The notes under the pieces: model-generated
What the model was told of the DNA's origin: nothing
Seen by the model: the letters and a program-made list of their open reading frames with translations, nothing else
Database searches by the model: none
Part shown: one piece after another, positions 2,913 through 15,424 of the stretch
How the letters are laid out: each line of letters starts with the position of its first letter
How positions within the stretch are numbered: position 1 is the first letter of the stretch
Assembly: GCA_027057985.1 (NCBI GenBank)
Contig: JALUTJ010000153.1
Coordinates: 1 to 15,424 of the forward strand
Reading direction: 5' to 3'
From: Chromatiales bacterium
GTDB lineage: Bacteria > Pseudomonadota > Gammaproteobacteria > UBA6429 > Thiohalophilaceae
DNA length: 15,424 bases
Made by a program: the position numbers and the translations under genes

Positions 2913-3401
2913 ATGGTACTGGCAGATTTTATTGTTCTGGGGATAATCCTGATATCGGTGGTGATTAGCCTGATTCGTGGTTTTGTCAAGGAAGCACTGT
3001 CACTGGCAGGCTGGTTACTTTCACTCTGGATTGCCATGACATTTTCTTCTGGTATGGCCGAGATATATGCCGATACTATCAAGGATCCTACTTTACGATT
3101 GCTGGCTGCCTTTATCACTCTTTTCGTATTGTCGCTGGTTGCAGGTTCAATCATTAATTTTTTTGCCACCCAGTTTGTACAGCGTGCAGGACTGACCGGT
3201 GTCGATCGCACCATCGGTGTGGTATTTGGTTTTTTACGTGGCATTTTACTGGTCACGATTATCGTCATGTTGCTGGGTTTAACCACGTTGCCAAAAGAGG
3301 ACTGGTGGGATGATTCGTTCTTCCTCTTCCGCTTTGAAGTGATTGCTACATGGCTAAAAGATTTATTACCGGATGATATATCCCGGTATTTCAGGTATTG
3401 A
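2913..3401 (+). CDS. cvpA: CvpA family inner-membrane protein
   Basis: 162-aa hydrophobic protein with about four predicted membrane segments (roughly residues 4-20, 30-46, 62-84 and 101-122). The family signature is visible as FIVLGIILISVVISLIRGF near the N-terminus and GVDRTIGVVFGFLRG at 97-110. CvpA was first described in colicin V production and is linked to envelope homeostasis, but its biochemical role is unresolved. It starts 21 nt after the SPOR gene, with an AAAAGGTAAG ribosome-site-like stretch before ATG. In most relatives purF follows closely; here a 262-bp repeat separates them. Confidence 0.93.
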   Translation: MVLADFIVLGIILISVVISLIRGFVKEALSLAGWLLSLWIAMTFSSGMAEIYADTIKDPTLRLLAAFITLFVLSLVAGSIINFFATQFVQRAGLTGVDRTIGVVFGFLRGILLVTIIVMLLGLTTLPKEDWWDDSFFLFRFEVIATWLKDLLPDDISRYFRY

Positions 3402-3417
3402 TGCCTGGTTAAATTGC

Positions 3418-3679
3418 TGTTCCAGATACCTGTGCGCCAAGGGTATATAGGAGAGTCCAGAAGGTAGAAAGCCATTGTTGTTCAAGACCTTGGGCCGCAG
3501 GGGCAAGGATTGTTCCAGACAATCCTATTGCATTTCCGCCATCCCTGGCGGTCAAGGCGGGCCCAGAGCCTACATGGATGTATTTACGGCGTGTCTTGAA
3601 CGGCAATGGCTGAATACCTTTACTTGCAGAAATCGAAATGCCATTTTGAACTTTCTGACGAGACAGGTATTTTAGAACA
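3418..3679 (+). repeat. Palindromic repeat element, copy A (262 bp, MITE-like)
   Basis: This fills most of the 330-nt gap between cvpA and purF. The outer ends are imperfect inverted repeats: TGTTCCAGATACCTGT at 3418-3433 against ACAGGTATTTTAGAACA at 3663-3679. A second long-range helix pairs 3471-3488 with 3593-3610 (18 of 18 pairs, two of them G-U). Inside are two local hairpins: GGATTGT/ACAATCC (3507-3513/3519-3525) and CCGCC/GGCGG (3536-3540/3547-3551). The stretch 3491-3560 is identical over 70 nt to 15239-15308 in copy B, at a constant offset of 11748. Short open frames cross it on both strands (for example 3475-3675 + and 3409-3606 -), but they follow the palindrome and have no credible ribosome site, so I do not call a gene. 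No target-site duplication is evident. It begins 16 nt past the cvpA stop. Confidence 0.9.
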
Positions 3680-3697
3680 TTTATTTAGAACTGTTGA

Positions 3698-3731: not shown

Positions 3732-5246
3732 ATGTGTGGAATCATTGGCCTTGTTGGCCATACCCCGGTTAACCAGTCACTCTATGATGGTCTGACAGTA
3801 TTACAACACCGTGGTCAGGATGCAGCCGGTATCGTCACCTGCGAAGGGGATCGTATGTACCTTCGTAAGAATAACGGCCTGGTCAAGGATGTGTTTCATA
3901 CCCGGCATATGATCAACCTGCGCGGTAATATTGGTATTGGCCATGTGCGTTATCCCACCGCGGGCTGTTTTTCTTCAGCCGAAGCACAACCGTTCTATGT
4001 CAATTCGCCTTACGGTATTGCCCTGGCACATAATGGTAACCTCACCAATGCCGATGAACTCAAGCGTGACCTGTTTGCCCAGGATCGTCGTCATATCAAT
4101 ACTAACTCTGATTCCGAAATCCTGCTCAATGTCTTTGCCCATGAACTGCAAAAGACCCTGGGCGACAAGCTCGATATTTCTGCAGATAATATTTTTGACG
4201 CAGTCGAAAAAGTACATGAACGCTGTCGCGGCGCCTATGCCGTGGTGGCCATGATTACCGGGCAGGGCATACTGGCTTTTCGTGATCCACACGGTATTCG
4301 CCCGGTGGCCTTTGGCAAAAGGGAAACAGAACAGGGCGTAGAACATATCGTTGCTTCAGAGTCGGTAGCGATAGATTCACTCGACTTTGAACTGGTGCGT
4401 GATATCGAGCCGGGTGAAGCCATCTTCATCAATAACCAGGGTGAACTATTCTCCCGCCAGTGTGCAAAGAACCCAAAACTGACGCCGTGTATTTTCGAGC
4501 ATGTTTACTTTGCCCGCCCGGATTCCATACTCGATGGTATTTCCGTGTACAAGGCCCGATTGCGCATGGGAGAGTACCTGGCAAAGACCATCCTCAAGCA
4601 GTTTCCGGATCATGATATCGACGTGGTACTGCCGATTCCCGATACCAGCCGAACCGCGGCACTGCAATTATCCTATGCGCTTGGCGTAAAATACAGCGAG
4701 GGCTTTATCAAGAACCGTTATATCGGTCGCACCTTTATTATGCCGGGACAGAAACAGCGCAAGAAATCGGTACGGCAAAAACTCAATGCGATTGAACTGG
4801 AATTCAAGGATAAGAATGTACTGCTGGTGGATGACTCGATTGTGCGCGGTACCACCTCACAACAGATTATCCAGATGGCGCGCGATGCCGGTGCGAAAAA
4901 AGTCTACTTTGCCTCAGCTGCCCCGGCGGTGCGTTACCCGAATGTTTATGGTATCGATATGCCAGCAGCGCATGAACTGATAGGTCATGGCCGAGATGTC
5001 GAGGAAATTGCCCGCGAGATCGGTGCTGACAGGCTGTTTTACCAGGAACTCGATGACCTGATTGAAGCAGTACGGAAGAAGGTGCCCAGGATTACCGAGT
5101 TCGATACCTCGGTCTTTAATGGGGAATACGTCACGGGTGATGTCGATGAAAAATACCTGCAACATATCGAAGCATTGCGTAATGATGCTGCCCGGGGTGA
5201 TGACGACAGTGACAACGAGGTTATTGCTATTCACAATAATACCTGA
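3732..5246 (+). CDS. purF: Amidophosphoribosyltransferase
   Basis: Catalyses the first committed step of purine synthesis: PRPP plus glutamine gives 5-phosphoribosylamine. The N-terminal glutaminase domain starts with the catalytic Cys2 ([10 protein letters not shown]), exposed once Met is removed; there is no propeptide. Other landmarks are HRGQDAAGI (26-34), [11 protein letters not shown] (68-78), AHNGNLTN (99-106), NSDSE (125-129) and RDPHGIRPV (184-192). The phosphoribosyltransferase domain carries the PRPP loop [14 protein letters not shown] at 363-376. The 504-aa length is typical. CAGGAAAA at 3719-3726 serves as ribosome site. Normally co-transcribed with cvpA; here the two are split by the repeat. 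Confidence 0.97.
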
Positions 5247-5346
5247 AGTATTTGACAATGGGACTGTCATCGCCTAACCTGTGTTTAATCAGTTTTGCGC
5301 CGATTTGTTATCAGCTTGCGGGCGCGTTAGAAATACAGCTAAAGTG

Positions 5347-5378
5347 AAGGCCTGCTTTAGCGAAAGCGGGCCTTTTTT
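5347..5378 (+). terminator. Rho-independent terminator after purF
   Basis: Stem 5347-5358 (AAGGCCTGCTTT) pairs with 5363-5374 (AAAGCGGGCCTT) over 12 positions, one a T-G wobble, around the tetraloop AGCG. It runs into a T-tract at 5373-5378. It lies 100 nt after the purF stop and 53 nt before the metZ ATG, so it should end the purF transcript. Confidence 0.88.
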
Positions 5379-5431: not shown

Positions 5432-6610
5432 ATGTCAGACTTTGATGAAAACTGGGCACTGGAAACACTGGCGGTACGAGCCGGGCAGCATCGCACCAAT
5501 GAAGGTGAACATAGTGAACCGATTTTCCCAACTTCGAGCTATGTCTTTCCCTCGGCCGCCGAAGCTGCGGCGCGATTTAAAGGCGAAAGCAAGGGCAATA
5601 TCTATTCACGTTTTACCAATCCTACGGTACGCACCTTTGAGCAGCGCCTTGCTGCGCTGGAAGGAGGAGAAAGCTGTGTTGCCACTGCTTCCGGCATGTC
5701 TGCTATTTTAAGCACCTTTATTGCCCTGTTGAAAAGTGGTGATCACGTTGTCTCTTCACGTTCCATTTTTGGAACCACGGTAGTGCTGTTCAATAAGTAC
5801 CTGCAACCCTTTGGTGTTGAGACTAGCTTTGTAAATCTTACCGATATCGATGCATGGAAGGCTGCCATTCGTCCTGAGACACGAATACTTTTCCTTGAGA
5901 CACCTTCAAACCCCCTGACCGAGGTGGCGGATATTCGTGCTCTTGCAGATCTGGCTCATGAAAACGATTGTTTGCTGATCGTGGATAACTGCCTGTGTAC
6001 GCCGGCACTGCAACAACCCTTAAAACTTGGCGCTGATATCGTTATTCATTCCGCAACCAAGTATATCGATGGGCAGGGACGCGCCGTGGGCGGTGCCGTT
6101 GTCGGTAACCGGGAACTGGTGGGTGAAACCGTGTTTGGTTTTCTGCGAACCGCAGGCCCTTCACTCAGCCCATTTAATGCCTGGATATTTTTAAAAGGAC
6201 TGGAAACCCTGTCGCTGCGCATGAAAGCTCATAGTGATAATGCATTGCAACTGGCGCAATACCTGGAACAGCATGAAAAGATCAATCGGGTTTTTTATTG
6301 TGGGCTGGAATCCCATCCACAGTATGCACTGGCACAGCAACAACAGCTGGCCGGGAGTGGCGTTTTGTCTTTCGAGGTAAAAGGTGGCCAGTCGGCGGCA
6401 TGGAAGATTATAGATGCAACCGAACTGCTTTCAATAACCGCGAATCTGGGGGATGCCAAGTCAACCATCACGCATCCCGCGACGACCACGCATGGGCGAC
6501 TCAGTGAGGAGGAAAAACAGCAGGCCGGTATTACCGATGGGCTTATTCGTATTTCGGTTGGGCTGGAAAACATCCAGGACATTATTGCGGATATTGAAAA
6601 AGGACTATAA
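5432..6610 (+). CDS. metZ: O-succinylhomoserine sulfhydrylase
   Basis: PLP-dependent enzyme of the Cys/Met metabolism family. The MetZ type makes homocysteine directly from O-succinylhomoserine and sulfide in methionine synthesis. The 392-aa protein shows YSRFTNPT (58-65), the cofactor segment SGMS (87-90), LETPSNPL (155-162), the PLP-aspartate region IVDNC (183-187), and the Schiff-base Lys210 in SATKYIDGQGR, a form typical of MetZ rather than MetB or MetC. The C-terminal LSITANLGDAKSTITHPATTTH and RISVGLE are also standard. GGAG at 5422-5425 precedes the ATG. metZ directly after purF is the arrangement I recall from Pseudomonas. Cystathionine gamma-synthase is the main alternative but less likely. 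Confidence 0.93.
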   Translation: MSDFDENWALETLAVRAGQHRTNEGEHSEPIFPTSSYVFPSAAEAAARFKGESKGNIYSRFTNPTVRTFEQRLAALEGGESCVATASGMSAILSTFIALLKSGDHVVSSRSIFGTTVVLFNKYLQPFGVETSFVNLTDIDAWKAAIRPETRILFLETPSNPLTEVADIRALADLAHENDCLLIVDNCLCTPALQQPLKLGADIVIHSATKYIDGQGRAVGGAVVGNRELVGETVFGFLRTAGPSLSPFNAWIFLKGLETLSLRMKAHSDNALQLAQYLEQHEKINRVFYCGLESHPQYALAQQQQLAGSGVLSFEVKGGQSAAWKIIDATELLSITANLGDAKSTITHPATTTHGRLSEEEKQQAGITDGLIRISVGLENIQDIIADIEKGL

Positions 6611-11849: not shown

Positions 11850-11916
11850 GAAAAATAAACTTATCAGATTCTTTTTCTTCATACTGGTGCAGTAATGTAT
11901 TCCATTTTCAAATTTC

Positions 11917-12015
11917 TATTCCATACCTGCCCAGTCTAAAAATTAAGAAATAAAGTGTATCCTGATTTCTGTAATAGAGGTAATTCAGCCATTGCCGATC
12001 AAGACACGCCGTAAA
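11917..12015 (-). repeat. Partial palindromic repeat element, copy C
   Basis: Read on the minus strand, this 99-nt segment matches the right-hand third of copies A and B: the segment from TTTACGG, the 18-nt arm (11988-12005), the CTGAATTACCTC stretch, and the outer end (minus-strand GGGCAGGTATGGAATA against ACAGGTATTTTAGAACA in A). The part from 11980 to 12015 is nearly identical to A, with one inserted A and one T-to-A change. The core, the left arm and the left end are missing. Minus-strand homology begins 8 nt after the lipoprotein stop, so it lies downstream of a gene in the same orientation as A and B. It occupies most of the gap before the nasA enhancer. Confidence 0.8.
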
Positions 12016-12023
12016 GTTATTAG

Positions 12024-12717: not shown

Positions 12718-15153
12718 ATGAAAGAAAAACTGGTTGTCATTGGTAATGGGATGGCGGGCATTCGTACCGTCGAGGAATTACTGAAAATTGATGCTGACAT
12801 GTATGACATTGTTGTCTTTGGGGCCGAGCCTTACGGAAACTATAACCGTATTATGCTTTCACCTGTGCTGGCTGGCGAAAAGACCATCGATGAAATCATG
12901 CTCAATGATGAGCAGTGGTACAAGGACAATAATATTACCCTGCACAAGGGTGTGGAAGTAACAAAGATCGACCGTGTTAATCGCAAGGTGATTGCGGCCG
13001 ATGGTACAGAAGAAGCCTATGACCGTCTCTTAATTGCGACTGGCTCTGATCCCTTTATGATTCCGGTACCGGGTAATGACCTTGAAGGTGTGATTGCATT
13101 CCGCGATATCAAGGATGTGGACACCATGGTCGAGACGGCAAAGAAACACAAGCATGCCGTGGTTATCGGCGGTGGTCTGCTGGGACTGGAAGCGGCCAAT
13201 GGCCTGATGGAGCAGGGCATGAGCGTCACCGTGGTACACCTGATGGATCGCCTGATGGAACGTCAGCTCGATGCTTCGGCGGCGGCAATGTTAAAAGAAT
13301 CACTGGAAGAGCGTGGTCTGCACTTCCTGATGCAGGCCGAGACCGAGGCTATTATCGGTAAGGATCGGGTTGAGAAGGTTCGCTTCAAAGATGGCTCGGA
13401 AATCTATGCTGACCTGGTTGTGATGGCGGTGGGCATCAAGCCCAATATCAAGCTGGCGAAAGAGGCGGGTATTCACTGTGAGCGTGGTATTGTGGTCAAC
13501 GATACCTTGCAAACCTACGATCCGATCATCTATTCAGTGGGTGAATGTGTGCAGCACCGTGGTGTGACCTACGGTCTGGTGGCGCCATTATTTGAAATGG
13601 CCAAAGTCTGTGCCAACCATATTGCCAAGATGGGTATCGGTCGTTACGAAGGTACCCTGACATCGACCAAGCTTAAGGTAACCGGTATCGATCTGTTCTC
13701 TGCTGGTGACTTTATGGGTGATGAAACCACCGATGAGCTGGTATTCCAGGACAAGGCGCGGGGTGTCTACCGCAAGATCGTGGTAAAGGATGGCAAGATA
13801 CTCGGTGCCGTTATGTATGGTGATACCATCGATGGCACCTGGTACTTCGACCTGATGCGTGATGGTACCGATATCTCTGAAATGCGCGAAACCCTGCTGT
13901 TCGGTCAGGCGCATCTGGGTGATTCCGGTCACGGTGATGATAACCGCGTTGCCGCGATGTCGGATTCTGCCGAAATTTGTGGTTGTAACGGTGTCACCAA
14001 GGGCGATATCGTTAATGCCATTACGGTAAACAAGCTGTTTACCCTTGATGAAGTACGTGCCCACACCAAGGCATCCAGCTCATGTGGTTCCTGTACTGGT
14101 CTGGTGGAATCGCTGATGTCACATGTCCTTGGTGGTGATTACTCCACTGCTCCACACCTGAAGCCAATCTGTGGCTGTACCGACAAGACCCATGACGAAG
14201 TGCGTGCAGCAATTGCCGATAATGGCTTTAAGTCGGTGCAGACGGTAATGGACAGCCTGGAATGGAAAACACCTAACGGCTGTAGCAAGTGTCGTCCGGC
14301 AATCAATTATTACCTGGTATGCCAGTTCCCGGAACTGCATCTCGATGACGCACAGTCACGCTTTATCAATGAACGCGCACACGCCAATATCCAGGGTGAT
14401 GGTACCTATTCCGTTATTCCACGTATGTGGGGTGGTATGACCACGCCACAGGAACTGCGTGCGATTGCTGATGCGGCAGAAAAATTCAATCTCGATACGG
14501 TACACGTTACCGGCGGTCAGCGTATCGGCCTCTATGGTCTGAAAAAAGAAGAGTTACCGGCTATCTGGGATGATCTCAACAAGGCCGGCATGGTTTCCGG
14601 CCATGCTTATGGTAAAGCTTTACGTACTGTTAAAACCTGTGTTGGTAAGGAGTGGTGTCGTTTTGGTACCCAGGATTCAACCGGCATTGGTATCAAGCTG
14701 GAGAAAATGAGCTGGGGCTCATGGATGCCGCATAAATTCAAGATGGCCGCTTCCGGTTGTCCGCGTAACTGTGCCGAAGCCACCATCAAGGACTTTGGTG
14801 TTGTTTGTGTAGACTCAGGTTACGAACTGCATGTTGGCGGCAATGGTGGTATCAAGGTACGCGCAACCGACCTGTTATGCAATGTCAGTACAGAAGAAGA
14901 AGTACTGGAATACAGTGCAGCCTTTATCCAGCTTTACCGTGAAGAAGCGCATTACCTCGAACGTACTGCACCATGGATTGAACGTGTTGGCCTGGCGCAT
15001 GTGAAAGAAGCACTGGTCGATAATCCTGAAAAGCGTAAAGAGCTGGCAGAAAGGTTTAACTACTCGCAGACCTTTATGCAGGATGATCCATGGGAAGAAC
15101 GCGCCAAAGGTGGTGAAGCCCATGAATTTACACCGATTAAGGTGGTTGGCTAA
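12718..15153 (+). CDS. nirB: Nitrite reductase [NAD(P)H], large subunit
   Basis: Cytoplasmic siroheme enzyme that reduces nitrite to ammonium with NAD(P)H. Domains in order: FAD site GNGMAG (9-14); NAD(P)H site VVIGGGLLGLE (148-158); a first BFD-type [2Fe-2S] domain with C421, C423, C456 and C459; a second with C485, C487, C522 and C525; then the sulfite/nitrite reductase half-domains, with HVTGGQRIGLYG (596-607) and the 4Fe-4S-siroheme cysteines C641-x5-C647 and C681-x3-C685. At 811 aa it is somewhat shorter than E. coli NirB but complete. GGAG at 12708-12711 lies 6 nt before ATG. The sigma-54/NtrC control region indicates an assimilatory role. NirD, the usual small subunit, is not seen before the window ends; a repeat element follows instead. 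Confidence 0.96.
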   Translation: MKEKLVVIGNGMAGIRTVEELLKIDADMYDIVVFGAEPYGNYNRIMLSPVLAGEKTIDEIMLNDEQWYKDNNITLHKGVEVTKIDRVNRKVIAADGTEEAYDRLLIATGSDPFMIPVPGNDLEGVIAFRDIKDVDTMVETAKKHKHAVVIGGGLLGLEAANGLMEQGMSVTVVHLMDRLMERQLDASAAAMLKESLEERGLHFLMQAETEAIIGKDRVEKVRFKDGSEIYADLVVMAVGIKPNIKLAKEAGIHCERGIVVNDTLQTYDPIIYSVGECVQHRGVTYGLVAPLFEMAKVCANHIAKMGIGRYEGTLTSTKLKVTGIDLFSAGDFMGDETTDELVFQDKARGVYRKIVVKDGKILGAVMYGDTIDGTWYFDLMRDGTDISEMRETLLFGQAHLGDSGHGDDNRVAAMSDSAEICGCNGVTKGDIVNAITVNKLFTLDEVRAHTKASSSCGSCTGLVESLMSHVLGGDYSTAPHLKPICGCTDKTHDEVRAAIADNGFKSVQTVMDSLEWKTPNGCSKCRPAINYYLVCQFPELHLDDAQSRFINERAHANIQGDGTYSVIPRMWGGMTTPQELRAIADAAEKFNLDTVHVTGGQRIGLYGLKKEELPAIWDDLNKAGMVSGHAYGKALRTVKTCVGKEWCRFGTQDSTGIGIKLEKMSWGSWMPHKFKMAASGCPRNCAEATIKDFGVVCVDSGYELHVGGNGGIKVRATDLLCNVSTEEEVLEYSAAFIQLYREEAHYLERTAPWIERVGLAHVKEALVDNPEKRKELAERFNYSQTFMQDDPWEERAKGGEAHEFTPIKVVG

Positions 15154-15165
15154 GATTTAGATAAT

Positions 15166-15424
15166 TGTTCCGGATACCTGTATATATCGGGTTATATGAA
15201 GAATATAGGAGGTAGAAAGCTGTTGTTGAACAAGACCGTGGGCCGCAGGGGCAAGGATTGTTCCAGACAATCCTATTGCATTTCCGCCATCCCTGGCGGT
15301 CAAGGCGGCCCCCGAGCCTACAGGGATGTATTTACGGTGTGTCTTGATCAACAATAGCTGAATTACCTCCGATGACAGAAATTAAAATATACTTCCTGAC
15401 CCTTTTTAAAAGGCAGGTACCGGA
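15166..15424 (+). repeat. Palindromic repeat element, copy B (runs off the window)
   Basis: This is a second full-length copy of the element found after cvpA, aligning to copy A at a constant offset of 11748 from end to end. The outer ends are TGTTCCGGATACCTGT (15166-15181) and GGCAGGTACCGGA (15412-15424). By comparison with A the element should end at 15427 with ACA, three bases beyond the window. Its long-range arms are 15219-15236 and 15341-15358 (17 of 18 paired, one G-U). The local GGATTGT/ACAATCC and CCGCC/GGCGG hairpins lie inside the 70-bp core (15239-15308) that is identical to A. It begins 12 nt past the nirB stop, where nirD would normally follow. A minus-strand open frame (15157-15354) parallels the one in copy A but is explained by the repeat. 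Confidence 0.9.

Follow-up and report, generated by a model that had tools for sequence, protein, structure and literature searches.

CsrA sites are usually viewed as having evolved singly in leaders, together with a few dedicated sRNAs. In an excerpt of a 2020 review (PMC7652899), the CsrA SELEX consensus is given as RUACARGGAUGU, most sites are six-base loops closed by AC and GU, and their stems usually contain no more than four contiguous pairs. According to the published range, a CsrA dimer bridges sites 10–63 nt apart, best at distances above 18 nt. With regard to dispersed repeats, a text search with short strings from the tip of the element studied here led to one relevant match, PMC2759123, available in part, on the Yersinia repeat RU-2/YPAL (about 168 bp). 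YPAL is described in an excerpt of another review (PMC2229807) as mobile, with target duplications of 3–26 bp and with targets near dyad symmetry.

The window analyzed in this study is the whole 15,424-nt stretch of contig JALUTJ010000153.1 from a Chromatiales bacterium (GCA_027057985.1, hereafter the source genome). A preliminary description had reported two copies of a structured repeat, A and B. Both were recovered, but a third, half-deleted copy (C) was located at about 11909–12016 on the minus strand, the bounds of A were corrected to about 3410–3687, and B turned out to be truncated by the contig end at 15424. The window contains the following features:

3410–3687, forward strand: element A, about 278 bp, in the gap between cvpA and purF (end-repeat match, and empty spacer in five of seven congeners)
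3480–3601, forward strand: tip of element A, long form (model R1, 74.2 bits)
3500–3556, both strands folded: secondary insert within hairpin 1 of element A (comparison with short copies)
3568–3590, forward strand: hairpin 2 of element A, loop ATGGAT (sequence, fold, and the consensus in the excerpt of PMC7652899)
15158–15424, forward strand: element B, long form (start approximate, right end truncated by the contig end)
15228–15349, forward strand: tip of element B (model R1, 78.4 bits)
15316–15338, forward strand: hairpin 2 of element B, loop AGGGAT (sequence and fold)
11909–12016, reverse strand: element C, half-deleted, lacking the 5' tip half (approximate bounds)
2913–3401, forward strand: cvpA-like gene (Colicin_V, PF02674), upstream of element A
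3732–5246, forward strand: purF-like gene (glutamine amidotransferase and phosphoribosyltransferase domains), downstream of element A
12718–15153, forward strand: NirB-like reductase gene (Pyr_redox_2, NIR_SIR), upstream of element B

Searching Rfam at the gathering threshold placed no family on the element. The sole match in the window was a SAM_alpha riboswitch (RF00521) elsewhere, at 5287–5366 on the forward strand, with 36.2 bits against a cut-off of 36; it precedes a gene for a Cys/Met metabolism PLP enzyme (5432–6610). A CRISPR-repeat match of Rfam within the element was rejected as chance (E 7.7).

Using copy A as BLAST query against its own assembly (2.44 Mb, 539 contigs) resulted in 62 pieces on many contigs, and a covariance model of the tip (R1) revealed 37 matches in the source genome, so that the dispersed structured family proposed beforehand was confirmed. 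The predicted fold of copy A reached -109.2 kcal/mol compared with a shuffle mean of -74.4 (z -7.5) and that of copy B -105.4 kcal/mol (z -7.3), none of 200 shuffles being as good in either case, which is in line with the suggested folded nucleic acid. From the outside inwards, TAAATAGCTGTTCCAAATACCTGT-type end repeats, which have often decayed, are followed by a spacer, then by the inner stem with GAGGTAGAAAGCYRTTGTCGATCAAGAC and its partner, and finally by the tip. Short-form tips are 70-nt three-way junctions of two hairpins, namely GGGCCGC-ANGGANA-GCGGCCC (hairpin 1) and GCC-TAC-ANGGAT-GTA-TTTAC-GGC (hairpin 2). The long form, whose hairpin 1 is extended by about 51 bases, accounts for 9 of the 36 source-genome copies (A, B, L002, and L004–L009), three of which (L006, L008, and L009) harbor an additional insert of about 85 bases at hairpin 2. 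The 70-bp identical core reported for A and B is indeed present in the sequence, but consists mostly of this secondary insert of about 51 bases. Further variants in the source genome include L038, with the same tip on an unrelated stem, L007 and L033, in which part of the hairpin-1 stem is exchanged with both arms altered, and L031, L035, and L037, whose tip is reduced to one loop, apparently the result of a deletion from one CAGGGA loop repeat to the other.

Size variation was also detected in genome G030, where clean elements mostly measured 203–208 or 214–215 bp with matching ends. The same ends bound forms of 79–100, 255–258, and 308–310 bp among the 16 stretches examined; since end repeats were matched with up to 7 errors, some rows are spurious. 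On the sense strand, three GGA hairpin loops were displayed by each of three forms of 256–258 bp (L352–L354). The five forms of 308–310 bp (L347–L351) had two such loops on either strand, and L355 (255 bp) carried the antisense insert only, the other insert being absent. Similar antisense GGA inserts were found in other bacteria (L103 and L140). Five stretches of 79–100 bp in G030 (L356–L360) have the same end repeats and no tip; they are perhaps deletion products, or the ends can perhaps be retained without a tip.

The most conspicuous feature of the tip is the motif in its loops. Among 211 distinct tips (identical rows or stems counted once), ANGGA was present in 305 of 424 sense hairpin loops, compared with 8 of 393 on the antisense strand and 19 of 1339 in neighboring (background) DNA. 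Hairpin 1, which lies outside the search seed, revealed GGA in 88 of the 95 rows with letters there and A.GGA in 75; counts for loop 2 in the named-genome set are biased by the search pattern apart from 28 non-seed rows, all of which contained A.GGA, with altered closing stems in at least 13. The N inside ANGGA is free in both hairpins, and one source-genome copy (L005) has ATGAA in loop 2. Altogether, 163 of 184 distinct short tips carried two ANGGA motifs, 4 carried three, and 17 a single one. Of the 167 short tips with at least two, 135 have their GGA triplets 20 nt apart, within the 10–63 nt of two-site binding. Hairpin 2 consists of three pairs and a six-base loop followed by a bulge, and its UAC-ANGGAU-GUA fits the CsrA SELEX consensus, so that a GGA in a hairpin loop of the RUACARGGAUGU type is present; in element A the only mismatches to the consensus are at the first R and the AR position. 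The conserved bulge (TTYAC) may keep this stem short. Conserved as well are GAGCC and GCGTGTC, which CsrA alone does not explain.

In the lowest-energy fold, the sense strand of copies A and B displays a single ANGGA loop each, located in hairpin 2. Hairpin 1 is occupied by the insert and the second sense ANGGA loop is lost, which leaves A and B without the dual site found on the sense strand of short forms. The antisense strand of their insert folds into two GGA loops, CCAGGGATGG and TGTCTGGAACA.

ANGGA is the CsrA/RsmA signature, and based on sequence and geometry, the tip can be assigned as a putative dual CsrA/RsmA binding module. We therefore favor, with a probability of roughly two in three, a non-autonomous, MITE-like element of Gammaproteobacteria whose tip is a mobile, predicted CsrA-binding module.

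The preliminary description had relied on compensatory changes, and its two double compensations between A and B, C3473-G3608 to T15221-A15356 and T3481-A3600 to A15229-T15348, read as claimed. Following the check with a model and covariation in further copies that it had suggested, pairing was kept and double-sided changes were far above shuffles. Within the source genome, 22 of the 36 tips were used (21 distinct rows; 14 long, minimal, or duplicate tips were omitted), in which 98.0% of cells pair and 7 of 24 pairs changed on both sides, as high a value occurring in 0 of 500 shuffles. Duplicate loci (L001, L003, L025, and L027) were dropped. In 104 distinct tips from other genomes, 94.0% of cells pair and 22 of 24 pairs changed on both sides, amounting to 560 double-changed cells; shuffling gave 149 on average, and sliding the partners no more than 132.

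These changes are real, but taken alone they carry less weight than they seem to. In genome G014, stem sequences differ strongly from copy to copy in 21 tips and yet comprise 555 Watson-Crick pairs, 5 G.T, 1 A.C, and 4 mismatches. Such perfect hypervariable stems, as found in G014 and G034, suggest palindrome correction by template switching, a mechanism at the DNA level. Since near-perfect hypervariable stems can arise through DNA correction, compensatory changes alone are no proof of RNA selection, and caution is advisable wherever selection on RNA is deduced from covariation in long palindromes. Loci L257–L276 and L297–L311 from G014 and G034 displayed near-perfect stems with hardly any wobble and with sequences that differ among copies.

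Stronger evidence, overlooked in the preliminary description, comes from the ANGGA loops and from an excess of G.T over A.C on one strand across genera. In the named-genome set (80 of 116 listed stretches were given to the model), G.T outnumbered A.C by 133 to 26, prevailing in 53 loci compared with 4 for A.C and 23 with equal numbers, which is what selection on the RNA of the ANGGA strand would produce. The source genome revealed 40 G.T and 4 A.C, mostly from two inherited pairs. No significant asymmetry was detected in the sampled relatives, a set of 80 stretches chosen among the listed matches that favors high scorers, with 61 G.T and 46 A.C (25 loci compared with 16, p 0.21).

It is highly improbable that the repeats are neutral remains, in which template-switch correction keeps the stems complementary and the tips are alike merely as young or converted copies. 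The near-perfect hypervariable stems of G014 and the wobble parity in the sampled relatives would fit such an origin, but the tip is conserved across genera with the stems saturated, and the ends approach random identity while the tip remains at 92%. The latter value was obtained from 21 short source-genome copies, whose inner arms were 76–77% and outer parts 34–44% alike; aligned random 30-mers gave a baseline of 29%, and the fixed windows and indels depress the outer values. In G034, the inner arms were 36% and the tip 85% alike. Either selection or conversion thus preserves the tip as the remainder decays.

Mobility was apparent at the site of element A. In five of seven congeners, the spacer between cvpA and purF is short and contains no element, identifying element A as an insertion in the cvpA-purF operon, with its ANGGA strand as the sense strand; the other two congeners harbor a different insert there. 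These two inserts (L341 and L343) are about 200 bp long and resemble each other. As is typical of a MITE, the element has terminal inverted repeats and many copies and contains no transposase gene, for which it is too short, and a filled and an empty state were found at one site, cvpA-purF, so that the MITE-like mobile repeat considered earlier holds. The outer end repeats in the source genome and G030 mostly begin with TA, and no clear target duplication was seen by eye. Searching G030 by eye at about 100 of 150 sites for an autonomous partner, we found no clear pair of end repeats 0.7–3 kb apart. Altogether, the repeat is MITE-like: its ends decay and its stem varies, but the 70-nt tip with two hairpins is conserved.

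Such mobility, and the finding that stems in G014 and other relatives are perfect and show no wobble excess, would also suit a fold that acts as DNA, i.e., an extruded hairpin tip read by a transposase or recombinase, as REP sequences are read by RAYT, with ANGGA being part of the enzyme site. The conserved bulge and flanks of hairpin 2 exceed the needs of CsrA, and 14 of 21 tip-bearing genomes encode Y1 (RAYT-type) transposases. However, no Y1 was found in the remaining 7, including the source genome, G013 with at least 86 tip matches, and G041 with 27; for this reason RAYT/REP was rejected as the local driver. The one-strand excess of G.T across genera and the free N in the otherwise fixed ANGGA of both loops, which suits CsrA, also argue against an enzyme site, and we consider this explanation an outside chance.

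Regarding the gene context, none of the 36 source-genome copies lies in an ORF of at least 250 amino acids according to a crude longest-ORF caller; in the other two sets, this applied to 12 of 111 and to 10 of 89. The copies are mostly intergenic. A coding role was thus rejected. Orientation was counted for tips more than 450 bp from another tip, away from locus edges, and within 600 bp of a gene. Unpaired copies between same-direction genes were in sense in 44 of 91 cases, i.e., without strand bias, and convergent gaps (45) exceeded divergent ones (22; p 0.007), which indicates that the elements avoid promoters and choose no strand. An orientation bias in support of cis-regulation was therefore tested for and found absent. 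These data favor a decoy or read-through role over a fixed leader switch; many copies may have no effect at all. A generic RNA stem-loop repeat, comparable to BIME or ERIC, that alters mRNA stability or termination and has no role for CsrA would likewise agree with the mostly intergenic positions and the surplus of convergent gaps, and the excerpt of PMC2229807 states that YPAL might affect the stability of upstream transcripts. As a constant loop would be dispensable for such a repeat, but both hairpins retain A.GGA while the stems turn over, we regard it as improbable. In the named-genome set, 39 of 111 tips are located at most 450 bp from another tip, and neighboring tips are often divergent, e.g., L104, L115, and L143. 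With divergent pairs or loops on both strands, read-through from either side would often expose a site.

With regard to the predicted binding partner, a csrA gene was identified in all seven congeners and in 27 of 30 genomes searched. In the class sample, csrA was found in 75 of 77 tip-bearing genomes (read by eye) compared with 248 of 293 others (Fisher p 0.0017), an association confounded by kinship and genome reduction. The two csrA-negative tip bearers are G000 and G212; no csrA was detected in the source assembly or in that of G212, both of which are fragmented. Six of the seven congeners (G001 and G003–G007) harbor second or third, more distant CsrA-like genes.

The tip was detected in 21 of 58 genomes comprising the source genome and its relatives; sampling the class Gammaproteobacteria gave 77 positives among 370 genomes. 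In a draw at the phylum level, 32 of 397 genomes were positive, all being the source genome or members of the same class; the out-of-class share of the 397 is not shown. A pattern scan of named genomes revealed tips in Marinobacter, Microbulbifer, Rheinheimera, Luteimonas, Lysobacter, Pseudomonas, Halopseudomonas, and others. One Marinobacter tip resulted in no match at E 1e-5 in plasmid, phage, and E. coli collections, a single-tip query that can miss relatives due to the strong stem variation. Tips L086, L129, and L133 are located in MAG contigs titled Klebsiella pneumoniae; given that this one tip had no match in the E. coli collection, these titles may be wrong.

According to the favored CsrA-binding module, a copy would be transcribed, probably through read-through from a neighboring gene, and the RNA of its tip should bind a dimer of CsrA/RsmA, each RNA-binding face taking one loop. 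An inserted copy would thereby bring a CsrA site into a host mRNA, and many copies jointly could take up CsrA. Larger forms gain ANGGA hairpins, some of them on the opposite strand, so that a site could be displayed by read-through from either side. If true, a global post-transcriptional regulon would gain members by transposition of a ready-made dual CsrA site, dozens of copies could alter free CsrA, and YPAL, along with a large group of gammaproteobacterial repeats lacking an Rfam family, would acquire a suggested function. For a more far-reaching version the balance seems even: a class-wide superfamily of transposable elements, with YPAL as one branch, would have evolved to dock CsrA, the dual-loop module being selected through the complete turnover of ends and stems, and some lineages would have added GGA hairpins on both strands, so that MITEs become CsrB-like decoys which rewire or titrate Csr with each copy.

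No published link to CsrA was found for these repeats in our literature searches, and the available parts of four texts on YPAL (PMC2759123, PMC2229807, PMC2267715, and PMC5193452) do not mention CsrA. Like the antagonist sRNAs CsrB, RsmY, and RsmZ, the repeat possesses several GGA hairpin loops suited to CsrA dimers; unlike them, it is dispersed and mobile, has two to four hairpins per strand, and has no Rfam match. McaS-like dual-function sRNAs, as described in a review, differ in being single genes rather than mobile repeats. With ERIC (RU-1) and REP/BIME it shares the character of a short intergenic palindromic repeat in many copies. REP with RAYT differs with respect to the Y1 transposase, which was not found in 7 of 21 tip-bearing genomes, and the element is no single short palindrome of the REP type. 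YPAL/RU-2 comes closest. Its sequence, as printed in the available part of PMC2759123, includes GAGCCTACATGGATGTATTTACGGCGT, the hairpin-2 block, and folds with the loops CCAAGGATGG and ACATGGATGT, though hairpin 2 is absent from the lowest-energy fold of a 78-nt YPAL piece folded alone. In addition, YPAL is mobile, intergenic, and present in many copies. It differs, as far as these partial sources go, in having no TA termini, in its internal inverted repeats, and in its 3–26 bp duplications, while the copies in the source genome and G030 mostly have TA ends and other lengths, with no duplication seen. Thus, the earlier statement that the repeat belongs to no named family stands with regard to Rfam, but its tip is common to a published repeat: the element shares its tip with YPAL/RU-2 and is not classed as YPAL.
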